A stretch of DNA of 34,493 nt, from contig JAOACQ010000026.1 of assembly GCA_026417755.1 (NCBI GenBank), positions 1 to 34,493 on the forward strand, given 5' to 3'. The DNA is from Brevinematales bacterium. Lineage in GTDB: Bacteria > Spirochaetota > Brevinematia > Brevinematales > JAOACQ01. A model generated the notes under the pieces. The model was not told the DNA's origin. It ran no database searches and worked only from the letters and a program-made list of their open reading frames with translations. Positions 3,949 to 27,535 of the stretch are shown piece after piece. The position numbers and the translations under genes were made by a program. Every line of letters starts with the position of its first letter. Within the stretch, counting starts at the first letter, position 1.

Positions 3949-5850
3949 TTATTTGCCTTTTTTCTTTGTTGTTTTCGGGTTATTAGTTTTAGGTGCCCAT
4001 TTGCTTTCTGGAAAATTTTTCTTTATCTTTTCTATATATTTTTGGGATTCTTTTTTGTTCCCCATTTTTTCGTAAATCTTTGAAAGGTGATAATATATTT
4101 CATCAAATCCAGCAGAATCTTCATTTGTTGTAGTTACAAGAGTTTCAACCTTATTAAATATTTCAAATGACTTTTGAAAATTTCCCTCATTATAATAAAT
4201 CCATCCCTTTGTATCTAAATAAGGAAGATAATCTGGCTTAATTATTAAAGCCTTATCTACCAAATTGTGCGCTTTGTCTAGATTTATTTTTTCGATTGAG
4301 TATACATAAGCAAGAAGATTATTTATTTCAGGATCGTTTTCTTTGAGTTTTAAAGCTCTTTCAAGATATTCGATAGATTTCTTGTTGTCATTTTTTTCGT
4401 AGTATGAAACACCAATGAAGAATAAACTTTTAGTATCGAGAGGCATAAATTCAAGGGCGTCTTCAAAATTTTTGATTGCCATATCATATTTTTTGTTGTC
4501 ATAGTTTATAAGACCACTGTGAAAAAGAACAAGGTATTTTTCATTTGCTTTACGTGCTATACCATTTGCTTTTGATATATATTCCTGAGATTTTTCTTTT
4601 TCTTTTTTTAAATGATAAATATATGATAGTTTTATATATGAATCAACAAGATAATCAGTAGCTTCTTCGGAAGAAGTATAGAGTTCAAAATATTTTTTTG
4701 CTTCATCATAATTTTTTATTTCATAACAAAGTGTACCTATTACCCAGTATATTGTTGGTTTACCAGCATTATTTTTTTCTATTACTTTGTAAAATTTAAT
4801 TGCAAGCTCAAGTTTTTCTGAGATTTCAGCCTTGTTTCCAAGTAAAAAGGCTTCTTTATTTTGCATTTCTGTGTTGGTAATCTTCTCATAATTTAAATAA
4901 AATAGGTAATGAATATAAAAATGTGGGGAAGGATTTTTCTTTGTTATTTCTTCGAGTGTTTTCAACGAATCTTTATATTTTCCTTCGCTATATTGTGATA
5001 AGGCTTTTAAATATATTGATTCACTTTGATATTTTTTTGCAAAACTTTTGTATTCTTCATCTCCTGAAACAAGCAACAGGCCACCATATAATTCATATAA
5101 ACCTTCAGCCCATAAAACCTCTGGAATTTTATTAATGACTTTTATTGCTTTTTCAAATTCAAGAACCTCCGAATAAACAATAGCTAGATTGATTAATAGT
5201 CTATTATCGTAAGGATTAATATTGATAGCTTTTTCATAATAATAAATTGCATCAAAATAGTTATTATTTTCTACAGCTAACTGACCTAGATTAAAATATG
5301 ATTTGTAGAGAATCAAATACTCAAGTTCGTTGTTAAAATTTTGAGAATTGATAACTTTTAAAAAATATGCTTCTGCATCATCATATTTTCTCTTCAAAAA
5401 CTCAATAACTCCGAGGTAAAAGTTTGCTACAATATCGTCTTTATTGTTTTTGATAAGCATATTGAGGGGTTTTTTCATCTCTTCAATGTTTCCACTTTCC
5501 TCAAGAAGAAAAACATATTTTTTTGCTATCTCAGTATTATCCGGGTATAGACTGAAAGCCTCTCTGGCAAGATTAACAGTTTCTTTAAGAAAAGATTTGT
5601 AATTTTTTTCATCATTTTGAACTATATATTTTCTTGTTTTTGCTATATATGATTCAAGCATAGAGTTGTAAATGTATTCATTTATTACACCTTTCTTTTT
5701 TATTTCATTGAATAACTTGATGGCTTCATCAAATTGTCCCGCATTATGTCTTTCAAGTGCTTCTGCGTATATAGTTTCTATTTCAAAATCATTTTGTTCA
5801 CCATATATAATCGTTGTTATGATTAAGAGTGAAAAAAGTATTTTTTTCAT
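3949..5850 (-). CDS. Periplasmic or secreted TPR-repeat protein
   Basis: A 633-residue protein with an N-terminal signal sequence (basic MKK, then LFSLLIITTIIYG) and no lipobox. The rest is almost entirely tetratricopeptide repeats: recurring A-x4-F/Y/L patterns such as YYYEKAININPYD, AIKNFEDALEFMPLD, SIEYLERALKLKENDPEINNLLAYVYS, about ten or more repeats. The C-terminus is a lysine-rich tail (TTKKKGK). TPR arrays are protein-protein scaffolds; the partner is unknown. The start codon overlaps the stop of the upstream M50 protease gene by 4 bases (ATGA), and its Shine-Dalgarno (AGGGGG) lies inside that gene, so the two should be translationally coupled and functionally linked. An outer-membrane or cell-envelope assembly role is inference only. 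Confidence 0.8.
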   Translation of the reverse strand: MKKILFSLLIITTIIYGEQNDFEIETIYAEALERHNAGQFDEAIKLFNEIKKKGVINEYIYNSMLESYIAKTRKYIVQNDEKNYKSFLKETVNLAREAFSLYPDNTEIAKKYVFLLEESGNIEEMKKPLNMLIKNNKDDIVANFYLGVIEFLKRKYDDAEAYFLKVINSQNFNNELEYLILYKSYFNLGQLAVENNNYFDAIYYYEKAININPYDNRLLINLAIVYSEVLEFEKAIKVINKIPEVLWAEGLYELYGGLLLVSGDEEYKSFAKKYQSESIYLKALSQYSEGKYKDSLKTLEEITKKNPSPHFYIHYLFYLNYEKITNTEMQNKEAFLLGNKAEISEKLELAIKFYKVIEKNNAGKPTIYWVIGTLCYEIKNYDEAKKYFELYTSSEEATDYLVDSYIKLSYIYHLKKEKEKSQEYISKANGIARKANEKYLVLFHSGLINYDNKKYDMAIKNFEDALEFMPLDTKSLFFIGVSYYEKNDNKKSIEYLERALKLKENDPEINNLLAYVYSIEKINLDKAHNLVDKALIIKPDYLPYLDTKGWIYYNEGNFQKSFEIFNKVETLVTTTNEDSAGFDEIYYHLSKIYEKMGNKKESQKYIEKIKKNFPESKWAPKTNNPKTTKKKGK

Positions 5851-6467
5851 TGTTTTCCCCCTAAAAATAAGTTTATAAGAAAATTTCCGATCAAATTAAA
5901 CAAAGGCACATAAATGTATCTTATTCCTCCAGTTACCATCAATACAAGAAAAGCAACTAAAAAAAAGTCTTTAAGTTTATAGACAACATATCTGATCTTT
6001 TCAGGCAAAAGCATTGAGAAAAAATTATACCCGTCAAGTGGTGGAAAAGGTAATAGATTGAATACGAATAACATAAGATTCATAGAAGCAACAACTAAAA
6101 AACCTTCAATCCTGAAAAGCACAAAAAACCAAAACATAAGTATCATAATTATAAAATTTATGACTACACCAGCTATTGAGACAACCAATATACCTATCCT
6201 CTGGTGTTTAAAATTAATTGGATTTATCGGGACAGGTTTTGCCCATCCAAATACTGGCATATTAAATATAAATAGTATCAAAGGAAGAATAACTGTACCT
6301 ACGGGATCAATATGTTTTAGTGGGTTTAAGGACAATCTTCCTGCTAATTTTGCTGTATCATCACCATAGATTAAAGCTGCAAAACCATGAGCTACCTCAT
6401 GAAGAATTATACTATAAGCTATCCCAATTATTATTATTAATCCATTTAAAATCAAAAAAATATCCAT
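5847..6467 (-). CDS. Membrane-embedded site-2-type metalloprotease (peptidase M50 family, YwhC-like)
   Basis: A small intramembrane zinc protease of 206 residues with no PDZ domain. The zinc site is visible: HEVAH at residues 23-27 (two His ligands and catalytic Glu) in the first membrane helix, and N137-LLPFPPLD145-G, carrying the third metal ligand Asp, in a later helix. About five or six hydrophobic helices are seen (residues 3-22, 55-75, 93-117, 122-140, 165-180, 185-202). This minimal form, found in many bacteria and archaea, has mostly unknown substrates. It is the first gene of a two-gene unit with the TPR protein, which could present or recognise substrates (inference). It is read from a promoter with a perfect TTGACA element at 6510-6515. 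The Shine-Dalgarno before ATG 6467 is weak. Confidence 0.9.
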   Translation of the reverse strand: MDIFLILNGLIIIIGIAYSIILHEVAHGFAALIYGDDTAKLAGRLSLNPLKHIDPVGTVILPLILFIFNMPVFGWAKPVPINPINFKHQRIGILVVSIAGVVINFIIMILMFWFFVLFRIEGFLVVASMNLMLFVFNLLPFPPLDGYNFFSMLLPEKIRYVVYKLKDFFLVAFLVLMVTGGIRYIYVPLFNLIGNFLINLFLGGKQ

Positions 6468-6689: not shown

Positions 6690-6718
6690 TTGAAAAAAAC
6701 AAATAATTAAGATAAAAT
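6690..6718 (+). promoter_or_regulatory. Sigma-70-type promoter for the ECF sigma/FecR operon
   Basis: TTGAAA (6690-6695), 17-base spacer, TAAAAT (6713-6718), leaving a leader of about 30 bases to the TTG start at 6757. Divergent from the M50 promoter. The rest of the 289-base gap 6468-6756 holds no convincing gene; a 29-codon ORF at 6617-6706 is described in the findings. Confidence 0.6.
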
Positions 6719-6756
6719 ATAAGTAATGAAAAAAAGATTTTGTTTAAGAGGGCAGA

Positions 6757-7326
6757 TTGGATATTAAAAAACTTACAGATGAGGAATTGGTATTAAATCT
6801 TCAGACTTTAAAAGAGAGCTCACGAGTTGTCTTTGAACAGTATATAGAAGAGTTGTTTGAAAGGTATAAGATTCAGATTTATAGTTTGTCAATGTATTAT
6901 GGTTTACAAAGTGAAGATGCAATGGATGTTGTTCAGGAGACTTTTATAAAGTTTCTCAACTTTCATCGCTCTTTTAAAACTGATCTTACATTTAAACCCT
7001 GGTTTTTTAAAATAGTTTTAAATGTTGTGAGAAATAAATACAACGAATTAAAAAAACATAGTTATGTAGAAATAAGTAAACTTTCATCGGAAATGTTTTT
7101 TGATGAAAATTTTGAAAAACTTCAAAAAAGAGAAATATTAAGAGGTATTTTATATAGGTTGCCAGTGAAAGAGAGAGAAGTAATACTCCTTGAAATTTAT
7201 GGGGGACTTAACCTGAAAGAAATATCAGAGACGCTAGGTATTTCTTTAAGGCAGGTTTATAACAGGCTTGATAAGGCATATGAGCTTTTGAAGGAATATA
7301 TAGGAGATAATATAGATGATTTCTGA
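6757..7326 (+). CDS. ECF-type RNA polymerase sigma factor
   Basis: A 189-residue sigma-70-family factor with only regions 2 and 4. Region 2 is at about residues 28-75 (YGLQSEDAMDVVQETFIKFLNF, then a KPWFFKIVLNVVRNK segment). Region 4 is at about 128-180 (LPVKEREVILLEIYGGLNLKEISETL, helix-turn-helix GISLRQVYNRLDKA). The start is TTG at 6757, 4 bases after GAGGG; no upstream ATG is in frame. ECF sigmas direct RNA polymerase to stress or envelope regulons and are usually held by a co-encoded anti-sigma factor. The next gene overlaps it by 11 bases and encodes a membrane FecR protein, which fits that role. Target promoters are not identifiable; the promoter in front looks like ordinary sigma-70 rather than an autoregulated AAC-type element. 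Confidence 0.9.
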   Translation: MDIKKLTDEELVLNLQTLKESSRVVFEQYIEELFERYKIQIYSLSMYYGLQSEDAMDVVQETFIKFLNFHRSFKTDLTFKPWFFKIVLNVVRNKYNELKKHSYVEISKLSSEMFFDENFEKLQKREILRGILYRLPVKEREVILLEIYGGLNLKEISETLGISLRQVYNRLDKAYELLKEYIGDNIDDF

Positions 7327-8962
7327 TTTGGATAAGAAGAGACTAAGAGAGATATTGTCAAAATATTCCTATACTAAGGAAGAAGTAAATTTAGAAGAAA
7401 TAATAAAAAATATTAACTCATTCAGAAAATATGATTATAAAAAGTCTTATTCTGGATTTTTAAAACTTGCTTTTTCATTCTCTGCTATATTGCTTATAGC
7501 TATAATATTGTTTTTAAATAAACCTGATACTATATCTATAAACAATGGAAAAACAATATTAAAGGCCGGCGAGTATGTAAAGACAGAAAGAGAAAAGTAT
7601 GAAGTAGAGTTGAAAGATAAAAGTAAGTTTATTATTTTTGAGAATTCTACATTTAATATAATTTCTGCTAAAGATAATAGAACAATTATTGAATTGAAAG
7701 AAGGAAGAGGACATTTCAAAATAACAAAAAGAGAAAAATCTCATTTCTTTGTTAAAACACCTTCCCTGGAAATAACTGTAAAAGGGACAGAATTTTTTGT
7801 ATGGGTAAATAACAAAACCGAAGAGGTTCATGTTATTGAGGGGGAAATTTTTATAACAAATATTGTTAACAAAGGGAGTTCAGAAATAGAAGCAAATGAG
7901 GCTATATTATTCGATAGAGATAAAAATATAATAAGAAAAGAAAATACAGATCTTACAAGAATTGAAAATATTATTATGCCAAAGTTGAGTGTAAAGAAAG
8001 AGATAAAATCAGAAAAACTCAAAAAGCCTAGATATTCTGAGACAAAAGAAAATCTTATATATCTTGATGATAAGACTGTTATTTTTAATAAAAAAGATTT
8101 ATATATTTATCAAAGCGGGGATTATTCAAGTGCTAAAAGAAAGATTAGTTTAACTGATAATATTGCAAAGATTACTCCATATGGGACTATTATACTTATT
8201 AATGGAGAAAATGGGGGTCTTTATGCATACGACCTGGAGGGAGAATACTTGTGGGCGAATATGGAAGCTGGCATAGTTAGGTTTTTTTCCAAGCCAATTA
8301 TAAAGAATGACCAGATTTATCTGGCTACAGTGGATAAAGGTATACAGATTTTTGGTCTTGATGGTAGACTTATTGATACAATTAAGAAGGGGGATAAGAA
8401 GGCAATTTATAATTCTCCTGTAATACTCGAAGATAAAAGCATAATATATCTCAATGAGAATGGAGATTTAACAAGATATGATACTATGACAAAGAAGAAT
8501 ATCTGGCAGATAAATATAGAAGATAGAGTTTTGTTTCCATTTTTTGAAAGGGGTGGGGTTTTATATCTTGTGTCAAAGAGTAGGAGTGAGGTATTGGCCA
8601 TAAATGTAGAAAATGGAGAAAAAATATGGGCTAGTAAGATAAAAGAAAATCTTTATATAAATAATTTTTATATATTTGGAGATCATCTGATTCTTGGTAG
8701 TGATGATGGCATTACGGTTTTTAATATAAATAATGGTGAGGTAGAAAGAGTCTTTAATTATGATTTTTCTATTAAGCAGGCTATAACAGAAACAAATAGA
8801 CTTTATCTACTTGACACAAACAACCGCCTTACCATCTGGACAATTCCAGATTTTATAAAAGTTTATGAGAAAAAGTTTACCAAAGAGGTTAAGAGAATTT
8901 CATACTATAATGGCAAAATCCTTGTTTATGGTAACAACTTCTATCATGAGGTTAGGGATTAG
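7316..8962 (+). CDS. Membrane FecR-domain protein fused to a PQQ-like beta-propeller; probable anti-sigma factor/sensor
   Basis: A 548-residue single-pass membrane protein. Residues 1-47 are charged and cytoplasmic, able to bind the sigma factor. Residues 48-67 form one membrane helix (LKLAFSFSAILLIAIILFL). Residues about 78-200 are a FecR domain (AGEYVKTE, FNI..., HFFVKTPSLEITVKGTEFFV, HVIEGEIFI). Residues about 240-548 are repeated beta-propeller blades of PQQ/BamB type (GGLYAYDLEGEYLWA, GDLTRYDTMTKKNIWQI, SEVLAINVENGEKIWA, GITVFNINNGEVERVF). ATG 7316 follows AGGAG and lies inside the end of the sigma gene, so the two are translationally coupled. FecR proteins act as transmembrane sigma regulators; a propeller as the sensing end is unusual, and a ligand is not predictable. 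The stop overlaps the convergent TPR gene by 4 bases. Confidence 0.82.
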   Translation: MISDLDKKRLREILSKYSYTKEEVNLEEIIKNINSFRKYDYKKSYSGFLKLAFSFSAILLIAIILFLNKPDTISINNGKTILKAGEYVKTEREKYEVELKDKSKFIIFENSTFNIISAKDNRTIIELKEGRGHFKITKREKSHFFVKTPSLEITVKGTEFFVWVNNKTEEVHVIEGEIFITNIVNKGSSEIEANEAILFDRDKNIIRKENTDLTRIENIIMPKLSVKKEIKSEKLKKPRYSETKENLIYLDDKTVIFNKKDLYIYQSGDYSSAKRKISLTDNIAKITPYGTIILINGENGGLYAYDLEGEYLWANMEAGIVRFFSKPIIKNDQIYLATVDKGIQIFGLDGRLIDTIKKGDKKAIYNSPVILEDKSIIYLNENGDLTRYDTMTKKNIWQINIEDRVLFPFFERGGVLYLVSKSRSEVLAINVENGEKIWASKIKENLYINNFYIFGDHLILGSDDGITVFNINNGEVERVFNYDFSIKQAITETNRLYLLDTNNRLTIWTIPDFIKVYEKKFTKEVKRISYYNGKILVYGNNFYHEVRD

Positions 8963-26402: not shown

Positions 26403-26425
26403 GTTAAGTGTTAGTGTTTTATCTC

Positions 26426-26441
26426 GGGTTATTGATAACCC
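26426..26441 (+). promoter_or_regulatory. Palindrome in the xylanase leader, operator or RNA hairpin
   Basis: GGGTTATTGATAACCC: two 7-base arms (GGGTTAT, ATAACCC) separated by TG. It lies about 57 bases after the predicted transcription start and about 10 bases before the AGAGGAG ribosome site, and a T5 run follows after AAA. It could be a repressor operator acting as a roadblock, or an RNA hairpin. Confidence 0.5.
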
Positions 26442-26464
26442 AAATTTTTCAAGAGGAGTTAGTT

Positions 26465-27535
26465 ATGGGTAAAGTAAAAGGTCTATTATTTGTTTTGTTA
26501 ACATTGCTTTTTGTTACTTCTTGTGCTACTGATAAAAAAGCAAATGTTAAAGAAGAATTTGATAGTGCTACCATTGCCAATGAAGGTTTAAAGTTTTTTG
26601 GTGAAAAAAGAGGTATTTACATTGGGACTGCAATTACTGAGGGGCAGCTTAATGATGAAAAATTTGTAGAGATTGTGAAAAAAAATTGTAACTATATAAC
26701 TCCGGAGAATGAATTCAAATGGGAGAACATTCATCCTTCAAGAAAGGTTTATAATTTTAAGAAAACTGATAAACTGGTTGCCTTTGCTAAGGAAAACAAT
26801 ATGAAAATCAGAGGGCATACACTTGTTTGGCATTCACAGAATCCATACTGGATTGCTAAACCAGGGACAACGGCAGAAGAACTCAAAGAAACAATGAAAG
26901 TTCACATTTCAAATGTGATGACTTATTATAAGGGTCAGGTGAATGATTGGGATGTTGTTAATGAAGCAATTGCTGATAATGGTGAGTTGAGGGAAAGCAT
27001 CTGGCAGCTTATAATTGGCGATGAATATATTGAACACGCTTTCAAATGTGCATATGAAGCCGATCCAAATGCTAAACTTTACATTAATGATTACAATATA
27101 GAAGATATAAATCCAAAATCAAACAAACTCTATGAGATAGTCAAAAATTTGGTTGCAAAAAAAGTGCCTATTCATGGTGTTGGATTTCAATTTCATCTTG
27201 ATGGGAGGTGGGAACCTGATTATGTTTCAATAAGAGCAAATTTTGAAAGATTTAAGAAATTAGGTCTCGATATTCAGATAACAGAGCTTGATGTAAGGTT
27301 GCCTAAAAATTATAGTGAGGTTGATTTAAATAGGCAGGCCAAAATATATGGCGAATTAATGAAGATTATGCTGGAAGTTAAGGGTAGTGCTTTTATAATG
27401 TGGGGAATGACTGATAAATACAGTTGGGTTCCTTCATTTTTCTCTGGTTTTGGGGGGGCTTTAATATTTGATGAGCAATATAATCCAAAACCTGCATATA
27501 TGAAGTTAAAAGAAGTATTAGTGAAATCAAAGTAA
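26465..27535 (+). CDS. GH10 endo-beta-1,4-xylanase, lipoprotein
   Basis: Endo-acting xylan hydrolase anchored on the cell envelope. The ORF track adds 19 codons; ATG 26465 behind AGAGGAG is the start, giving 356 residues with lipobox VTSC (lipid on Cys20). A single GH10 barrel follows: ENEFKWENIHPSR, RGHTLVWHSQNPYW, the acid/base WDVVNEA (Glu167), GVGFQFHL, nucleophile ITELDVR (Glu274) and a closing GMTDKYSWVPSFF. No carbohydrate-binding module is attached, unlike the enzyme at the left edge. The next gene starts 11 bases later, so xylanase and the internal glycosidase are one operon. The promoter is strong and the leader has a palindrome, suggesting substrate-dependent control. Confidence 0.95.
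   Translation: MGKVKGLLFVLLTLLFVTSCATDKKANVKEEFDSATIANEGLKFFGEKRGIYIGTAITEGQLNDEKFVEIVKKNCNYITPENEFKWENIHPSRKVYNFKKTDKLVAFAKENNMKIRGHTLVWHSQNPYWIAKPGTTAEELKETMKVHISNVMTYYKGQVNDWDVVNEAIADNGELRESIWQLIIGDEYIEHAFKCAYEADPNAKLYINDYNIEDINPKSNKLYEIVKNLVAKKVPIHGVGFQFHLDGRWEPDYVSIRANFERFKKLGLDIQITELDVRLPKNYSEVDLNRQAKIYGELMKIMLEVKGSAFIMWGMTDKYSWVPSFFSGFGGALIFDEQYNPKPAYMKLKEVLVKSK

Follow-up and report, generated by a model that had tools for sequence, protein, structure and literature searches.

In a draft genome of a Brevinematales bacterium (1.87 Mb, 86.65% complete), the gene for an ECF sigma factor is overlapped by that for a single-pass membrane regulator, in which a FecR domain is followed by a BamB-like beta-propeller. 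We consider it likely that the propeller senses the state of the envelope, or a partner within it, and that the sigma factor is then freed, probably by proteolysis. The pair lies on contig C22, and the whole stretch of this contig that was analysed (34,493 nucleotides) is called the window here. The features on which the argument draws are listed below.

6757..7326 (+): ECF sigma factor of 189 aa that has only regions 2 and 4, TTG start (Pfam r2/r4, TIGR02937, PDB profile matches)
7316..7326 (+): 11 bases shared by the end of the sigma gene and the start of the regulator gene (ORF coordinates)
7316..8962 (+): membrane regulator, 548 aa, with tail, transmembrane helix, FecR domain and beta-propeller (Pfam, hydropathy, AlphaFold, Foldseek)
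7316..7456 (+): cytoplasmic tail, residues 1-47, candidate anti-sigma domain (position and pairing statistics)
7457..7516 (+): single transmembrane helix, residues 48-67 (hydropathy; AlphaFold helix 49-67)
7580..7849 (+): FecR domain PF04773, residues 89-178 (E 1.2e-14)
7784..7789 (+): Gly157-Thr158 within the FecR domain (invariant columns in the alignment)
8054..8953 (+): BamB-like beta-propeller of about seven blades, residues 247-546 (PQQ_2 E 4.4e-8, TIGR03300, AlphaFold, Foldseek)

The sigma gene and its overlapping regulator

The TTG start of the sigma gene is backed by an alignment with 11 homologues. Its product matched Sigma70_r2 (E 2.2e-9) and Sigma70_r4_2 (E 9.1e-9) in Pfam, the sigma70-ECF model TIGR02937 in NCBIfam (84 bits against a cut-off of 43) and, among PDB profiles, SigW (E 5e-29) as well as SigE. 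The regulator gene starts with ATG 11 bases inside the sigma gene, which suggests translational coupling of the two; in relatives the interval between them ranged from -17 to +72 bases. These coordinates and profiles agree with the first-pass annotation, whose stretch began at 6690 (67 bases 5' of the sigma gene) and which had read the locus as an ECF sigma factor overlapped by a FecR-domain regulator. A promoter scan found 20 promoter-like sites near the genes versus 16.1 expected, i.e., chance level. Elsewhere in the window, the gene at 26408-27535 reads like a GH10 endoxylanase, and the large gene adjoining it may act on sugars too.

The anatomy that had been proposed for the regulator (a short tail, one helix, a FecR domain and a propeller of about 300 residues) was recovered by Pfam, hydropathy and AlphaFold. 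There is one hydrophobic stretch only, which peaks at residues 49-67 (Kyte-Doolittle 2.6). Ahead of it, AlphaFold predicted, at low confidence, two helices in the tail (residues 4-17 and 26-36); the 47 tail residues matched no Pfam family and no recognised anti-sigma family. Behind it, residues 87-201 aligned with positions 107-222 of the 313 in the NCBIfam FecR model.

Profiles and structure prediction both indicate that the C-terminus of the regulator is a propeller, as had been suggested for residues 240-548. Pfam placed PQQ_2/BamB at residues 372-475 (E 4.4e-8), and an ACSF4-type propeller match covered residues 291-464 (E 2.4e-10). The AlphaFold model, built on a seven-row alignment (mean pLDDT 60.7, with most of the FecR and propeller blocks at 60-90), lays four-stranded blades one after another over residues 247-546, and its best PDB match in Foldseek was BamB (E 4.6e-15, target TM-score ~0.6). 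Moreover, the family propeller profile retrieved designed propellers, BamB and RqkA-type propellers from the PDB. BamB (YfgL) shares with this domain the propeller fold and a distant sequence similarity; however, BamB is a lipoprotein, whereas in the window regulator a transmembrane helix anchors the propeller in the inner membrane, with a FecR domain in between. The regulator was rejected as a BamB in its own right: it scored 45.2 bits (E 4.8e-12) with the BamB model TIGR03300 against an equivalog cut-off of 285.2, is anchored by a transmembrane helix and carries a FecR domain.

Comparison with FecR signalling and proposed release of the sigma factor

Like the window pair, FecI-FecR-FecA and its kin (FpvI/FpvR, FoxI/FoxR, PupI/PupR) have an ECF sigma factor beside a regulator that crosses the membrane once and exposes a FecR domain to the periplasm. 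Further points of likeness are a Gly-Thr conserved at about the position of self-cleavage and an RseP-type protease in the source genome. Unlike those regulators, however, that of the window gave no Pfam match to DUF4974, DUF4880 or STN, and the propeller occupies the place held in FecR by the STN-like C-terminal domain. No STN domain, and hence no STN-bearing TonB-dependent transducer, was found in the source genome at its 86.65% completeness, in a search whose control was positive in E. coli; all three of its TonB-receptor-like proteins begin with CarboxypepD_reg, and none carries STN. Therefore, with the STN-like docking domain missing from the regulator and no STN receptor found in the genome, the pair is not a FecI-FecR-FecA system, and a TonB/STN route was rejected for this genome. 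On the absence of this route, the first-pass annotation, which had seen no receptor gene nearby, was supported.

The closest described relative in function is LIC12757/LIC12756 of Leptospira interrogans, likewise a spirochaete ECF sigma factor with a FecR-like single-pass regulator. There the regulator binds and inhibits the sigma factor via its N-terminal domain, and no STN-bearing receptor is known (PMC12155086, PMC13118517). Unlike the window regulator, LIC12756 has 350 residues and no reported propeller, a distinction drawn from published descriptions.

Based on knowledge of the FecR family and on the N-terminal anti-sigma domain of LIC12756, the short cytoplasmic tail of the window regulator is expected to hold the sigma factor, and perhaps also to stabilise or activate it. 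The FecR domain would be a membrane-proximal periplasmic module, and the propeller, in place of the STN-like docking domain, a periplasmic sensory or protein-binding domain. The signal it reads would most likely be an envelope protein or the state of the envelope, possibly conveyed via an outer-membrane partner; its arrival would change the FecR part, and tail and sigma factor would then be released, probably by regulated proteolysis at the putative GT self-cleavage site and by the RseP-type protease of the genome.

For such a release there is precedent. In E. coli, FecR very likely cleaves itself at Gly181-Thr182, and RseP makes a later cut within the membrane (PMC8144685); GT self-cleavage sites are described for both FecR and FoxR (PMC8144685, PMC11637429). 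By its position, judged from the match to the FecR model, Gly157-Thr158 of the window regulator is about the counterpart of these sites (181/182 in FecR, 191/192 in FoxR), and an RseP-like M50 protease with PDZ is encoded elsewhere in the source genome, away from the sigma pair. It is because of the invariant GT, this protease and the propeller standing where FecR has its STN-like domain that we propose a relay from propeller to sigma factor. The GT motif is not proof of cleavage, since it is also kept in exported proteins and FecR-domain lipoproteins away from sigma genes.

Divergent from the sigma gene, the window holds a small gene of M50 type (site-2 protease-like) that lacks PDZ (5847-6467, - strand). 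It was set aside as a dedicated site-2 protease, the match being weak and covering only part of the model; in the other loci read, no M50 gene adjoining the pair was seen.

Distribution of the pair in Spirochaetota

When a profile was run against 296 Spirochaetota genomes and neighbourhoods were read for the best and longest matches, though not exhaustively, this revealed 25 intact sigma-FecR-propeller pairs in 19 genomes from nine spirochaete families. Loci were chosen on FecR-propeller score, not on their sigma neighbours. Of the objections that the first-pass annotation had named, two were put to the test, that residues 240-548 form no propeller and that relatives lack the pair, and both failed. 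The pair is thus conserved in relatives and resembles pairs of ECF sigma and membrane anti-sigma factors in that the adjoining regulator is conserved along with the sigma factor. In the sigma tree, the paired sigma factors fall into several clades (Brevinematales; f30/f12/f23; f19/f31; f26).

The FecR-(PEGA)-propeller proteins of the phylum take two forms: A, with a cytoplasmic tail and a transmembrane helix; and B, exported or lipoprotein. By script, a sigma gene stood directly upstream of 24 of 29 form A genes versus 1 of 22 form B genes (Fisher p 1.3e-8, which overstates the evidence as the sequences are related, yet the 25 pairs span 19 genomes and nine families). Two rows were corrected by eye: L069 counts as form A, its Cys lying inside the transmembrane helix, and the second ORF of L189, with a lipobox that follows a later start, counts as form B. 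The counts then became 25 of 29 and 0 of 22. The form A proteins without an adjoining sigma gene (4/29) came from class-level relatives of family f5 (three) and from G041 (one); thus the ectodomain can serve without a neighbouring sigma factor. At L100, L102, L103, L105 and L114, all from f5, tail-bearing membrane FecR-propeller-like proteins without an adjoining sigma gene were seen, and the nearest sigma genes in these genomes adjoin an ABC ATPase gene (L125-L127, L129). In G051 (L154), the tail ahead of FecR domain and propeller contains Hx3Cx2C, a motif of the zinc-finger anti-sigma type (zf-HC2 E 0.0027, below the Pfam cut-off), and this zinc-finger-like tail supports an anti-sigma role.

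Outside the phylum, no FecR-propeller protein was found among 297 Bacteroidota genomes, which gave two propeller-only matches, nor in nine genomes from the phylum of an Omnitrophota MAG, a search run without a positive control. In the scan of named genomes, such proteins occurred in Spirochaetota only. FecR-propeller regulators of ECF sigma factors were not described in the literature searched, which left the main ECF classification paper outside, and an earlier mention is possible. Pairing of a sigma factor with a propeller-bearing regulator is thus probably a widespread variation on a known signalling scheme, and one not yet described.

Within Brevinematales, the source genome itself has three such pairs (C22, i.e., the window, C84 and C69). 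The C84 regulator carries an extra PEGA domain between FecR domain and propeller, and loci of its type are kept in eight other genomes of this order, with the gene order thrS, infC, rplT, a barrel-like gene of ~270 aa, sigma, FecR-PEGA-propeller. A few ORFs at these loci were hidden behind antisense ORFs in the ORF lists; the barrel-like gene was confirmed by tblastn. Genus g3 has a second pair, without PEGA (L069, L146; frame-broken in L147). The 13 Brevinematales sigma factors of these pairs form one clade in the tree (98/95), and each is encoded directly upstream of a FecR-propeller gene. Within the clade, the window sigma joins C84-type sigmas from its own family (94/86). This grouping suggests that the window pair arose by duplication at the level of the family and lost PEGA. 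Family f4 of the same order, with its four small genomes, lacks the system.

Several further genes were observed around these loci. The broken second FecR-propeller gene of G002 (L147:3169-4930) and a propeller-only ORF of G001 (L071:2414-3532) are decayed or split members. In all three g3 genomes, an exported, propeller-looking gene of ~650 aa is convergent to the second pair (L069:4315-6270, L146:1179-3113, L147:4917-6875). The gene 5' of the C69 pair (L018:5888-7204) is homologous to G001 L071:1236-2600 (E 1e-34), beside which the propeller-only ORF lies. A FlgO-family gene (G083 L163:6692-7750) occupies the same relative place 5' of the G083 pair; kinship between it and the FlgO-like gene 5' of the C69 pair was set aside on a weak match (E 0.015).

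Partners of the ectodomain and other readings

The first-pass annotation had suggested a self-contained transmembrane sensor. Of its reading, the propeller on the regulator itself and the lack of an STN route are supported; self-containment is uncertain, as genes seen in relatives make an envelope partner plausible. The most suggestive is a triplet in seven relatives, composed of the sigma gene, the tail-and-helix FecR-PEGA-propeller gene and a gene for a lipoprotein that shares this FecR-PEGA-propeller ectodomain. It was found in family f30 (G063, G185, G090, G206 and G081) and family f12 (G212), and also in G197, where a stretch is masked. The loci are as follows.

L184, L185, L186, L187, L189, L194: triplet, families f30 and f12
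L188: triplet with masked stretch

The other is the ~270-aa gene between rplT and sigma, directly 5' of the orthologous pair in nine Brevinematales genomes, with a signal peptide, many beta strands and a C-terminal Phe. Its product looks like a small outer-membrane barrel, and copies include:

L017:8385-9200, barrel-like gene
L053:3227-4063, barrel-like gene
L073:5390-6247, barrel-like gene
L076:5546-6334, barrel-like gene
L077:4744-5601, barrel-like gene

It is possible, if on balance doubtful, that the regulator is not self-contained and that its ectodomain pairs with the lipoprotein twin or the small barrel, either of which would then take the role that FecA plays through STN. This concerns the route by which the signal arrives and is compatible with the explanation that we prefer. 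FecR and FecA likewise share a domain, STN with STN (PMC11637429), and the triplet hints at just such a look-alike partner. Against it, no lipoprotein twin is present among the window ORFs near the pair, and tblastn with the barrel gene found nothing in the window; moreover, the barrel candidate matched no Pfam family, and its AlphaFold model was poor (pLDDT 42) and was not used for a fold search.

Two other readings depart further from control of the sigma factor by an envelope-sensing propeller, and we regard both as improbable. According to one, the propeller binds a small molecule, e.g., PQQ, and the regulator senses it, a role that has been proposed for RqkA; yet the nearest folds are those of BamB, which scaffolds proteins and is not known to bind PQQ. 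What speaks for a small-molecule sensor is that the propeller profile matched the RqkA-type structures 7dxn and 7eq5 (E 2e-16 and 3e-17), and that RqkA of Deinococcus (DR2518) is itself a signalling protein with a PQQ-type propeller, whose kinase activity is stimulated by PQQ in vitro (PMC11007091). Unlike the window regulator, RqkA has a Ser/Thr kinase as its output; a propeller kinase of this type was rejected, as the window regulator has no kinase domain and its tail spans just 47 residues.

The other, to which we give similarly little credence, takes FecR-propeller proteins as structural or assembly proteins of the envelope and the sigma-linked one as merely co-transcribed, a product or target of the regulon but not its controller. 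That BamB, the best fold match, is an outer-membrane assembly lipoprotein would fit, as would the finding that the phylum's FecR-propeller proteins outside the pairs are mostly exported proteins or lipoproteins with no sigma gene. However, the forms adjoining a sigma gene are those with tail and membrane helix only, across nine families and several sigma clades, and one of them has the zinc-finger-like tail of L154. Furthermore, anti-sigma factor genes commonly overlap or abut their sigma gene, and this is the order seen here.

We therefore retain, as likely, an ECF sigma factor governed by a membrane regulator whose propeller senses the envelope state or a partner. In this picture the gene pair, the order of domains, the fold of the propeller, the lack of STN partners, the spread over nine families and the tie of tail and helix to a neighbouring sigma gene are observed, whereas binding of the sigma factor, the direction of control, sensing and proteolytic release are inferred. 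The wider generalisation, that spirochaetes across the phylum use FecR signalling without a receptor, a BamB-like propeller in place of STN informing an ECF sigma factor of the envelope state and, in some lineages, pairing with a lipoprotein twin, is offered tentatively, at slightly less than even confidence. If true, control of sigma factors by FecR-type regulators would work without the TonB receptor route, the membrane regulator carrying its own large protein-binding sensor, and the BamB-like fold would hint at a possible tie between outer-membrane assembly and sigma control. What FecR-propeller proteins sense would become directly testable, and the pairs would represent a candidate class of signalling systems in a phylum about whose envelope signalling little is known.
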